Part shown: positions 36,706-41,646 of the stretch, piece after piece
Layout of the letters: every line of letters begins with the position of its first letter
How positions within the stretch are numbered: the first letter of the stretch is position 1
Origin: Magnetococcales bacterium
GTDB taxonomy: Bacteria; Pseudomonadota; Magnetococcia; Magnetococcales; UBA8363
Assembly: GCA_002753515.1 (NCBI GenBank)
Contig: PEAK01000039.1
Location: 1 to 41,765, forward strand
Direction of reading: 5' to 3'
DNA length: 41,765 bases
Position numbers and translations under genes: made by a program
The notes under the pieces: generated by a model
What the model was told of the DNA's origin: nothing
Databases searched by the model: none
The model's input: only the letters and a program-made list of their open reading frames with translations

Positions 36706-38736
36706 CTACGGAAGTTTGAGCTGGAGGGAGGGGGGGAGGTTGGCGGGGAAGGGTGGAAAGGGAATCCCCTGCAGCAAAAGTTTTTGCAATCCGGGCGCAC
36801 CCGGGTTGATGATCGACAGAATGGACCCCTTGCCGTACATGAGCAACTGGTAATGCACAAAGCCGTTGAGGACCAGCTTGACATAGGCGCGGGTTTCATT
36901 GAAAGGAATATTTTCAATGAATTCCACGGCGGATTCTGATCGACGTTGTTCGCGCCACTTTTCGCCCCGGCCAGGACCCGCATTGTAACTGCACAGGGCC
37001 AACACCAGATCCCCATCAAAGGCGGACAACATGCGCTTCATATAGGCCTGTCCCAAGGCCAAATTATAGGCGGGTTCATAGATCAACTCGGGATCGGGTG
37101 GTGGAAAGGAACTCAGTTTGGCCTCTTCTTCGGCAGTGGACGGGATGATCTGCAACAAACCCCGGGCTTGCGCGCTGGATTTGGAACGGGTATCGAACAA
37201 ACTCTCCTGTTTGGTCATTCCCCAGATCAAGGCGGGATCCAGTTGCCATCCCGATGCCGGCACCCAGTGGGGCATGGGGTAGAGACCTTGCCAATAATGG
37301 TGACCTGACCTCCGCATCTCCTGCGCCAGTCTGATGGCGTAATCAAAGGCGCCGGAGTGAACGGCCAGGCAGAGATGTTCCGCAATACCGAGTTGGAATC
37401 GTTGCGCAATGGTTTCCGCTTCCAGGCCATTGTAATGGCTTCGGCCCATGTCCCGTAACCAGAACATGCGCTGTAGATCCCCCTGCAACCGGGCGTCATG
37501 GATGATGTCACAATTGGTTGCGGAGGTTCGCAAATCCGGCAATTGGTTATCACGGGTTTCCAAGGCCAGCAAACCATAAAAGGTATCCGGAAATTTGGCT
37601 GCCTGATTGAGCCATTTCTTCCTGGCGCTTTTGGATTTTGACAACATGGCCGCCCACCAGGCCCCCTGGGAACGGCGATGACCTGACTTGGCCTGTTCCC
37701 CGAGCAATTCAAACATTTTCAAAGATCGTTTATCATGCTTCAGGCGATGTGCCGTCCAGGCCGCGAGCCACAGGGCATCTTCCAGTTCGGTACCCTTGTC
37801 CCCGTCATGGAGATCAGGGAGTTCAAGGGCGTCAAACAGATGATCACGATCTTCCAGATATTTGGCCAATCGATAGCGCAGAACATAACGATCATTGGTA
37901 TTCAGATGCCTGCCTTCCGGCCCCGTCAGCATGGCATACGCCTTGGCCCGGGAGCCATGACTCCGCAACCATTCGATGTATGCGTACCACAGCTCCGATC
38001 TGTGGGCATTTCTTTTTGACAGATGTTCGCGATATCTGGCGAATGACTTTTCATCGCCCCTGGTGGCCGCATCCAGGGCCAGGAAATAATAGCGCCGATT
38101 CTCGGGAAAGCCTTGAAGAAACACGCGCAGGGTTTCATGGCTACCATTTTTTATCAGATTGCGCGCCCGTTTCTCCTGGTCCCCGATGCCAATCCCCTTT
38201 TCAAATTCAGATGTTTTGCTGGCCAGATCCTTGGGGAGGACCATGCCCGCCAGGTACAGGTCTTTCCATAAGGGGAGGGCTTCAGGGATTCTGTTTTTTT
38301 GCAGGAGCAACTGAACGTAAAAAGTGCGAGCGGCTGTGGAAACGGGTGGGTGCGCGTCAAACCATGCCAATGCACTTTTCTCATCCATGGATTCGGTCAA
38401 TCGCGTTTCCACCCTCTTCGCAATCAGCTTCTTCTGGGCATGATCGGGCCATCTTTCCAGAAAATGCAAAAGATCGGGAATTGTGGCCTCGTTGCGGGGG
38501 TGAAGCAATAATTCGAGTTCAAGATAGGATATCAAATCCGCGTTATCCGGCCAGGTTGATCGATCAAGCACTTCGTCAACCGGTCCGCCATTCTCCAATA
38601 TTTTGAAATACGTGCGAAATATATTCAGATCACTTCCGGTTCCCCCTGCGGGCGCAGCGGCCATGGGAAAGGGGTGGCCCAAAAAAAATGCGAGCCACCC
38701 CGAAATCACTATGGCGGCTCGCAATTTTCCCCGCAT
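36706..38736 (-). CDS. Soluble lytic murein transglycosylase (Slt70-like)
   Basis: 676 residues. A signal peptide (~1-27) is followed by a long alpha-superhelical U-domain (~35-480) and a C-terminal SLT domain. The catalytic Glu is in T-K-Q-E-S-L-F-D, followed by A-R-G-L-L-Q-I-I-P-S-T-A and L-C-S-Y-N-A-G-P-G-R. It cleaves peptidoglycan glycan strands with 1,6-anhydro product formation. It starts 5 bp after the DUF302 gene on the same strand. A terminator-like hairpin lies inside its signal-peptide codons (38681-38723). The last ~45 residues (Pro-rich) extend past the usual domain end. Confidence 0.95.
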   Translation of the reverse strand: MRGKLRAAIVISGWLAFFLGHPFPMAAAPAGGTGSDLNIFRTYFKILENGGPVDEVLDRSTWPDNADLISYLELELLLHPRNEATIPDLLHFLERWPDHAQKKLIAKRVETRLTESMDEKSALAWFDAHPPVSTAARTFYVQLLLQKNRIPEALPLWKDLYLAGMVLPKDLASKTSEFEKGIGIGDQEKRARNLIKNGSHETLRVFLQGFPENRRYYFLALDAATRGDEKSFARYREHLSKRNAHRSELWYAYIEWLRSHGSRAKAYAMLTGPEGRHLNTNDRYVLRYRLAKYLEDRDHLFDALELPDLHDGDKGTELEDALWLAAWTAHRLKHDKRSLKMFELLGEQAKSGHRRSQGAWWAAMLSKSKSARKKWLNQAAKFPDTFYGLLALETRDNQLPDLRTSATNCDIIHDARLQGDLQRMFWLRDMGRSHYNGLEAETIAQRFQLGIAEHLCLAVHSGAFDYAIRLAQEMRRSGHHYWQGLYPMPHWVPASGWQLDPALIWGMTKQESLFDTRSKSSAQARGLLQIIPSTAEEEAKLSSFPPPDPELIYEPAYNLALGQAYMKRMLSAFDGDLVLALCSYNAGPGRGEKWREQRRSESAVEFIENIPFNETRAYVKLVLNGFVHYQLLMYGKGSILSIINPGAPGLQKLLLQGIPFPPFPANLPPSLQLKLP
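38681..38723 (-). terminator. Terminator/attenuator inside the slt signal-peptide codons
   Basis: On the minus strand TGCGAGCCGCC pairs with GGTGGCTCGCA (11 bp, one G-U) around a loop of about 13 bases, and eight T follow immediately. This is a textbook intrinsic terminator just after the DUF302 stop, yet it falls within codons 5-19 of slt. Confidence 0.8.
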
Positions 38737-38741
38737 GGTTC

Positions 38742-39140
38742 TTATACCAGATTCTCAAAGGCGGTGCGTATCTTCGCGGTCACTTCCGCAACCACTTCGA
38801 CAAGGGCATCGCTTTGCATGACATGGCCAATGATTTCCGGGTTGATGGCCGCCACCTCGACCCGTCCAGAGCCGTTTTCACGAACAACGACATTACAAGG
38901 AAGGAAAACACTGACATTTGCATCCGCCGACATGGCTCTATGCGCCAACGGGGGATTGCAGGCTCCCAGGACAATGGTTCGCGGCCAGGTGATATCCATT
39001 TTGTTTTTGAAGGTTGCCGACAGATCAATCTCAGTCAAAACGCCAAAGCCCTGTTGCATCAGAACTTGGCGCGTTTTGCCCAGGATGTCCTCGAAGGTTC
39101 CCGAAACGGTCTTGAGTATCAAATAATTATTTTTATTCAT
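38742..39140 (-). CDS. DUF302 domain protein
   Basis: 132 residues from ATG 39140 (GAGGAT upstream). DUF302 pattern: G-F-G-V-L-T-E-I-D-L, L-G-A-C-N-P-P-L-A-H-R-A, and L-P-C-N-V-V-V-R-E. No signal peptide. The biochemical role of the family is not established; it often occurs with redox or sulfur genes. It lies between the chemoreceptor and slt on the same strand. Confidence 0.88.
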   Translation of the reverse strand: MNKNNYLILKTVSGTFEDILGKTRQVLMQQGFGVLTEIDLSATFKNKMDITWPRTIVLGACNPPLAHRAMSADANVSVFLPCNVVVRENGSGRVEVAAINPEIIGHVMQSDALVEVVAEVTAKIRTAFENLV

Positions 39141-39190
39141 CGCAATCCTCGATGTGGATATGGAAAACTCGGTTGGATCATGCCGCAACT

Positions 39191-41646
39191 TTAGAGGAAA
39201 TAGAGTTCGTCGAGCAACTCAAATAGTCTCCTTTGATGAGTACTGAAAATATTTTCCAATTGTTTGGCCGCTTCCCCCTTATTCATGGCGTGAACGAGGT
39301 GAACGACTTCACGGGCGGATTCATGAACTCGAGCATGAACCTCACCTAATTCCTTGAACATGGGTAGATGGCCGAACTTTTCCTGACCTTCCCGGTCATA
39401 CCACTTCCCAAAAACACAGTCATGGGCCGAAGAAACATCATCCGGTACCAGGTTCAATCGCCCGCTGATGACCTGCTCCAGTTTTCCCAGCCAAGCCAAG
39501 TGTGCCTGCTTGATGAATCCCACATCGAAAAGCGGGGGGGGAATGGTCAAACTTTTTACGGAGTCGGAAAGGGACTCGCCGACACTTTGAATGATCTCGG
39601 TCATTGACCCGACCTGATGAACCGAACCGTCAACAAAGTTCATGTAATGAACAGCTTGCATGCCAACCTTTTGCACCTCGACTGAGGCGATGAAAATCTC
39701 TTTGGCGGACTGATGAACTTTATGAGCCAGAATTTTTGCCGAACTGCTGGCTTGTGCCACTTCTGATGCCGCAAGGGAGCCTTCAGCGGCAGCTCTGGCG
39801 ATCTCACTGTTGCCCGCAGCGGCCTCGGTGGAGGACCTTGCCACCTCCTGGGTGGCAAGGCTCATTTCCCGGGCGTTGCGCATCACTGTTTTTGCTGCGG
39901 CGGACACAGTGCCTATGGACGTGGAAATGGCCTCGGTGGCATCCCCTTGTTCGGTGATCGCAAAGGTGATTTCCCGGTTTGAGCGGCTGATGAGGGATAC
40001 CCCGTCAGAGATACCCGAAACGGAGCGACTGACTTCATCGGTGTGTTTCTGGATATCATTGACATAGTCCGAGATCATCTGCGTAGCCGCAACCGTCTGT
40101 CTCGCCAACTCCTTGACCTCATTGGCGACCACGGAAAAACCTTTGCCCGCCTCGCCTGCGCCTGCGGCTTCAATGGAGGCGTTGAGTGCCAGCATGTTGG
40201 TTTGCTGGGCAATGTTGCTGATGATTTCCAACACGCCTCCGATCCCTTTGGCGGAATTGGCGAGTTGCATGACGACCTGCTGGCTGTGTTGGGCACTGAG
40301 GGCGGCCTGGTTGGACTCGTTGCTGGCGAGCGTGCAAAGTTTCATGATTTCATTCATACTGACAGTCATTTTTTCTATGGCAGCGGCTACCATTGTTACG
40401 GATGCATCCACTTGTGTCAGGTTGTTGGACACGTCCTCAACATTCGCAGTCATTTCCTCAGCAGCCGCTGCCATGGTCGAAACATTTTGACTGGCCTGTT
40501 CAGCCCCTGCGGCAATGGTCTGGATGTTGGCGGCCAGTTCCTCCGCCGCTGCTGCTACCGTATTGATTTGTTCCTCGGCGTCATTGAGGTCGGACTTCTG
40601 ATTGGTGGTCGATTCGTCCAGCAAGGCGTTCTGTTTGATGACATCATGGAGACCGGCAACGGTATTCCGGGTGTCCAGGTCCAGCTGTGTCCTGATGTTG
40701 CGTTGCTCGTCTATGACCGAGGACAACGAATAAGCCTGAAGCATCACATTTCTCACGAGGTGGATCAGGCTATTGCGCATGAGGAGGATTTTGCCCAGCA
40801 GGCCAGTCTCCTCACCGGTTCCGGTGACTGTCAGATCACCTTTGGATATCCGGTCGATAATGATTTCCACATCCTTTGGCTCGCCGCCGATCTGCTTGAG
40901 AATGTCCCGAACGATCAGAAAGGTGATGAACAGTCCCAGAAACGCAGATATGATACCGGTAAGCCGCGCAATCCAATTGTGGATATTGGTTTGGCTGTCA
41001 ACGGACTTGATGGTGGTATCCCGGAGAGCAAAGGCCTGCTGTCGGATCCCCTCGATGATCGGCTCTATTTGGTGAACCGAATTCCGCATGTTTTCAGCTA
41101 CTTTACTGATAATCGCGTCTTCGTTCACAAGGGCGACGAAAGCCTTCTCGTAGGTGGCCAGTCCCCCCTGGATGGCCAGTTTTTCATCATCGCGAATTTT
41201 CGATTGAACGACATTGCCGGAAATGGTCGCGATCATGGCCTTGAGGCCTTGGACATATTTATCAATTCCACGAATCAGGTAGTCCTTTTCATGACGGCGG
41301 ACCATGAGGAGATCACCCCAGATATTGGAAACATAATAGGTATTGAGGAGATTCTCAATGACGTGGGCCTTTTGGCTCATGTGTTGGTAAACTGGTTGAT
41401 CCAAATCAATCTTTCCATCGTGTTGCCGAGCGGATACATAGTCATTCACTGCGGTTTTGTAGTCCTTGCCGGCTTGAAGGATTTCTGATTTCAACGCATC
41501 TGAGAGTCGGGACGAGGAAAGATAATTAACAAAATTAGTATGATTTTGCTGGAATCGGAGCCAATATTTTTCCTGTCCCCGCACCACGAAGTCTTTTTCA
41601 TCCCGGCGCAGTTCCCCCAACATAATTTTGAGCGGTGCCGTATCAT
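39191..41646 (-). pseudogene. 5'-truncated chemoreceptor: HBM-HAMP-MCP signal-CZB
   Basis: The annotated ATG at 41623 gives 810 residues, but the frame stays open upstream (N-Y-D-T-A-P-L-K-I) to a TAG inside the terminal repeat. Two related units, E-L-R-R-D-E-K-D-F (~4) and V-R-R-H-E-K-D-Y (~108), mark a helical bimodular ligand domain. Only one membrane helix remains (~217-238). HAMP follows, then the signalling hairpin (tip [12 protein letters not shown]) and a C-terminal zinc-binding CZB domain (H-L-A-W near 710, C-V-F-G-K-W-Y, H-x-x-x-H). The first membrane helix that should precede the ligand domain is lost where the repeat begins, so sensing from the periplasm is unlikely to work. Confidence 0.85.

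Follow-up and report, generated by a model that had tools for sequence, protein, structure and literature searches.

We describe a strong terminator-like site within the signal-peptide codons of slt, a lytic transglycosylase gene of a Magnetococcales genome, which begins 18 nt behind the stop codon of an upstream DUF302 gene. To judge from the sequence, it is somewhat probable that this slt-overlapping site is a partial intrinsic terminator belonging to the DUF302 gene and that readthrough throttles slt expression; slt would then probably be made only upon polymerase readthrough. The arrangement seems to be a familiar element in an unusual place, not a new kind of switch. This reading is favored by the strength of the stem, its rarity, its codon choice, and its position 18 nt behind the stop both here and in a sister genome (G001).

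Organization of the DUF302-slt gene pair

Within the window, the whole stretch of 41,765 nt that was analyzed, slt, DUF302, and the adjoining MCP gene all lie on the minus strand. slt (36706..38736) encodes an Slt-type lytic transglycosylase of 676 aa (Pfam PF01464 SLT, E=4e-22), whose N terminus, judged by eye, is a signal-peptide-like segment, MRGKLRAAIVISGWLAFFLGHPFPMAAA. Its upstream partner (38742..39140) encodes a DUF302-domain protein of 132 aa (Pfam PF03625, E=5e-22). The DUF302 stop codon, TAA, lies at 38744-38742 and the slt ATG at 38736-38734, leaving a minus-strand spacer of 5 nt (38737..38741). Upstream of DUF302, at 39166-41623, the window carries a chemoreceptor gene (MCPsignal, CZB), which is absent from that place in G001; there, the similarity to the window ends just upstream of DUF302.

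Downstream of the preceding in-frame stop, no start codon comes before the ATG at 38736, which is kept with the same spacing in G001, where the next Met codon, 38664, is Arg. Since moving the start downstream would also remove the signal-peptide-like segment, the slt start is hard to place elsewhere. A GAGG is found upstream of the DUF302 ATG; in the sequence before the slt ATG, no Shine-Dalgarno motif was recognizable by eye. Because slt lacks such a motif and starts 5 nt behind the DUF302 stop, the sequence suggests reinitiation or translational coupling. A sigma-70 scan was uninformative (5 sites versus 4.6 expected), and transcription from any slt promoter ahead of the start codon would likewise have to pass the hairpin described below.

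Geometry and predicted fold of the hairpin

The terminator-like site spans 38681..38723 on the minus strand, with the stem formed by 38723-38713 and 38699-38689, the loop by 38712-38700, and a T8 run at 38688-38681. The stem has 11 pairs, one of them G.U, with zero mismatches, and the loop measures 13 nt. Stem onset is 18 nt past the DUF302 stop, at +14 of slt; the stem opens in slt codon 5, and the T-run closes in codon 19. A preliminary description of this DNA had reported an 11-bp stem with eight T after the DUF302 stop, inside slt codons 5-19, and both its coordinates and its account of the element were correct.

The hairpin by itself has a predicted folding energy of about -21 kcal/mol. 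Including flanks, the 51-nt element reaches -24.5 kcal/mol (z = -5.2), which was equaled by 0 of 200 shuffles. A stable GC-rich stem and a U-tract of 8 directly 3' of it are the features of an intrinsic terminator, and the fold, the 11 pairs, and the T8 support the earlier claim to the extent of a strong terminator-like site within the signal-peptide codons. The 13-nt loop is longer than the 3 to 8 nt that are typical, if not strictly defining, of these elements, and a simple terminator scan accepting only loops of 3 to 8 nt missed the site. As in attenuators, an ORF ends shortly upstream, 18 nt away in both genomes, and we infer that it is translated. Ahead of the stem, an A4 stretch (38725..38728, minus strand), whose G001 counterpart is A6, could pair with the U-tract in the predicted fold and lengthen the hairpin. 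Rfam returned 0 matches at the gathering score in 38000-39400.

Two other roles for this region were considered and rejected. One was a plus-strand terminator; read that way, only AATTTT follows the stem, and the neighboring genes are all on the minus strand. The other was a regulated antiterminator switch based on an alternative hairpin (38671..38701, minus strand; 38701-38691 paired with 38681-38671), which is predicted to be preferred in a longer read-through RNA. This pairing needs bases past the T-run and was not found in the G001 fold; for both reasons, it makes no convincing switch.

Rarity of the site

We compared the site with a genome sample of 20 stretches plus the window (404,537 bases, both strands, loops of up to 15 nt). 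The sample held 128 sites with a score of at least 14 and at least six T; a score of at least 22 with at least seven T was reached by two, namely the slt site and an intergenic site located 23 nt behind a stop. By combined score, the slt site ranks third in the sample. We then shuffled synonymous codons in 200 sets of 301 called CDS (349,020 nt; crude ORF and codon-usage gene calls). A score of at least 26.3, the level of the slt site, with at least seven T arose 19 times anywhere in the 200 sets (0.095 per set) and in 0 of 200 sets within the first 60 nt of genes, where a milder score of at least 23.3, the G001 level, yielded 2 sites in 200 sets. Scaled to the whole genome, 0.095 per set corresponds to about one such site by chance somewhere in CDS; therefore, position and conservation matter, and the rarity of the slt site rests on the joint start position and 18-nt gap, not on score alone.

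When the protein sequence was kept and codons were redrawn according to the usage in the sample, 72 of 40,000 draws for this genome and 54 of 40,000 for G001 formed all 11 pairs, in a pairing register chosen after the fact. A T-run of at least seven recurred in 4,519 of 40,000 synonymous draws.

Conservation in the sister genome

In G001, the DUF302 protein is 88% identical and its gene occupies the same place before slt. All 11 pairs are retained, two as G.U, followed by one G and then T9; the 18-nt gap and the 5-nt spacer are also retained, and the spacer letters differ. Between the two slt genes, dN is 0.10 and dS 0.37 over the whole gene, and dN is 0.37 over the first 25 codons. Within codons 1-26, stem nucleotides differ at 2 of 22 positions versus 22 of 56 outside the stem (Fisher p=0.013), and both stem changes preserve pairing. 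Amino acids are the same in 7 of 7 stem codons (6-8 and 13-16) versus 5 of the 19 other codons in this range (p=0.001). Yet this conservation is weak proof, because 4-fold divergence (55/254) implies that the stem would survive neutral drift with a probability of about 0.42. Moreover, the right arm encodes GWLA, and since GWL recurs in several slt copies that lack the stem, protein constraint explains part of the conservation.

Distribution among relatives

Seven of the 10 loci with named relatives belong to Magnetococcales MAGs, the remaining 3 being distant Ferrovibrio matches. Eight genomes of the genus account for 12 of the listed full-scale slt places. We scanned 34 distinct slt loci of the 46 listed with E <= 1.9e-102, including all 12 of the genus; the 12 listed full-scale places left unscanned are all outside it. 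Two loci, L035 and L036, are the same places as L002 and L007 and were counted once, which reduces 36 loci to 34. A terminator-like site occurs in 2 of these 34 (2 of the 12 within the genus), exactly the two behind DUF302, and no comparable site was found in the other 32. The preliminary description had looked to homologous loci for conservation of the stem; stem, T-tract, and spacing are kept in G001, and the stem is missing from these 32. As the carriers are two sister genomes only, they represent one evolutionary event.

Besides this genome, only G001 has slt directly behind DUF302. In five other genus members, the DUF302 match and the full-scale slt places are on different contigs; G003 lacks a DUF302 match. 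At the five loci where DUF302 lies elsewhere (L049-L053), no comparable hairpin with a T-tract follows DUF302. In L050 and L051, a long near-perfect hairpin (GTGTGTCCACA...TGTGGACACAC) lies just past the DUF302 stop, without a T-tract; in L050, an opposite-strand gene comes after it. A DNA search with 161 bases against 61 genomes matched this genome, G001, and, over a short stretch at 93% (E = 2.8e-4), G031.

Several further features of slt were observed in these genomes. A second copy in this genome (L031, G000:C129:43233-45179) is 56% identical and lacks the terminator. Several of the copies among L006-L008 and L031-L034 are preceded by a frame whose end we take to resemble the FtsY C terminus. 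In L004 and L005 (G005 and G004), the slt frame contains, at about +90 to +93, a different and weaker hairpin with 8 bp, a loop of 6, and a T5 run behind it, inside the codons for LPEKDLEVF in both genomes. Finally, at G010:C140:58719-60673, a possible frameshift splits slt into two adjacent pieces that match residues 37-399 and 381-654; a convergent DUF302 gene lies about 1.5 kb away.

A model for readthrough into slt

In the reading that we favor, most RNA polymerases coming from DUF302 would stop at about 38681-38688, while a minority would read through to yield slt mRNA, so that slt would be held below DUF302. slt itself would be translated by reinitiation 5 nt past the DUF302 stop. The readthrough share may rise when a ribosome finishing DUF302 closely trails the polymerase, because 18 nt is within the range at which it could hinder the stem. 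The signal peptide would tolerate the constraint, since hydrophobic codons (Phe TTT and Leu TTG) can supply the T-run and the codons for RAA and GWLA the two arms.

The most similar experiment that we found, in Escherichia coli, offers a gauge for this distance. According to Li et al. (PMC4824070), termination at tR2 is repressed when a translated gene ends shortly before the stem and is restored at a distance of about 30 nt, with values of about 0.8 at 18 nt in one series and about 0.12 at 17 nt in another, figures that concern another terminator in another bacterium. The same source reports that translation from an AUG located 30 bp before a terminator cost the terminator only about 10% of its efficiency, and argues that ribosomes rarely catch the polymerase within the first 100 bp (PMC4824070). 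Because of the 17- to 18-nt results versus the post-AUG result, the ribosome finishing DUF302 is a plausible modulator, and if there is a translational gate at all, it is more likely to be this ribosome than one starting slt.

Several points weigh against the partial-terminator reading. A longer read-through RNA is predicted to prefer the alternative pairing, the 13-nt loop is long for a terminator, and G001 has a G before its T-run. In addition, any terminated transcript on which ribosomes started at the slt AUG would lack a stop codon, making it a costly non-stop mRNA. We are rather doubtful of a further-reaching version, in which the slt signal-peptide codons would be dual-use, selected both for export and for a terminator at a distance of exactly 18 nt from the DUF302 stop; how fast DUF302 is translated would then set the amount of a cell-wall hydrolase mRNA, and terminated messages would become non-stop if slt were started.

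Alternative explanations

The most serious competitor, in our view unlikely but deserving attention, is chance: signal-peptide codons (FFL, RAA, and GWLA) would form a hairpin and a T-run with no selected role, with little or no termination in vivo. T-runs are no rarity in segments of this kind, as the synonymous draws indicate (4,519 of 40,000) and as L003, which also has T8, illustrates; the probability of neutral retention, the confinement to two genomes, and the expectation of 0.095 sites per 349 kb of shuffled CDS, or about one somewhere per genome, point the same way. However, none of the 200 shuffle sets reached the score in the first 60 nt, the site is among the best of the genome sample, and the excess conservation at stem positions and the fitting distance behind DUF302 also argue against chance. 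A role in marking or protecting an RNase-processed 3' end of the DUF302-slt message, or in tuning slt translation, without termination being the main function, strikes us as very improbable. A hairpin at a 3' end can stabilize the RNA upstream, and G004 and G005 have a long hairpin without a T-tract after DUF302, but the T8 here and the T9 in G001 at the base of the stem would be superfluous for such a role.

The two remaining alternatives concern the start of slt and were both raised in the preliminary description. It had proposed a switch in which slt-initiating ribosomes would cover the hairpin, so that slt translation itself could decide whether transcription continues. The stem onset at +14 invites this idea, and the proximity of the slt start to the DUF302 stop means that reinitiation could be quick. 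Given the size of a ribosome footprint, however, a ribosome initiating at 38736 would extend no further than the first few nucleotides of the left arm, which tells against the proposal. The locus also has no leader peptide and no conserved antiterminator that we could find, and the competing hairpin, which was not seen in G001, requires that the T-run has been passed. The small loss, about 10%, reported in E. coli for a terminator 30 bp past an AUG (PMC4824070) further speaks against it, and we regard the switch as improbable. The description had also suggested that slt truly starts downstream of the site, which would then be an ordinary intergenic terminator. That view could appeal to the Met codon at 38664 and to the Shine-Dalgarno motif not seen before 38736, but it would strip a periplasmic-type enzyme of its signal-peptide-like segment and rely on a Met that is Arg in G001, where the ATG at 38736 and its spacing are kept; we find it scarcely credible.

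Relation to known systems

Literature matches were inspected by title and abstract opening; among those listed, none concerned a terminator located in the signal peptide of a lytic transglycosylase, and none combined Magnetococcales with DUF302. A survey of 5' premature terminators and attenuators is reportedly the work of Naville and Gautheret. That survey (PMC2965389) covers the region ahead of the first codon and leaves out terminators closer to the upstream than to the downstream gene; its sites lie before the ORF, whereas the slt site lies inside it. Close parallels appear in Li et al. (PMC4824070): the lambda tR2 constructs place a stem near an upstream stop (17 to 18 nt, compared with 18 nt here), and construct W48 has a terminator 30 bp inside a second ORF. 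Those constructs are engineered, whereas the overlap described here, with the signal-peptide codons of the next gene, is natural. With the pyrBI-type attenuator as presented in that text (PMC4824070), the site shares a terminator within coding sequence and readthrough that a nearby translating ribosome would allow. Unlike that type, it has no leader peptide or known pause site, its upstream ORF is a complete gene, DUF302, of 132 aa, and the regulated gene itself contains the terminator.

Such sites escape terminator finders that accept only short loops or search only intergenic DNA. Should the slt site not terminate transcription, it is ordinary in kind and unusual only in its location. If it does, it would be a natural terminator overlapping the export signal of the next gene, and a test case for whether it is upstream-finishing and not downstream-starting ribosomes that set readthrough.
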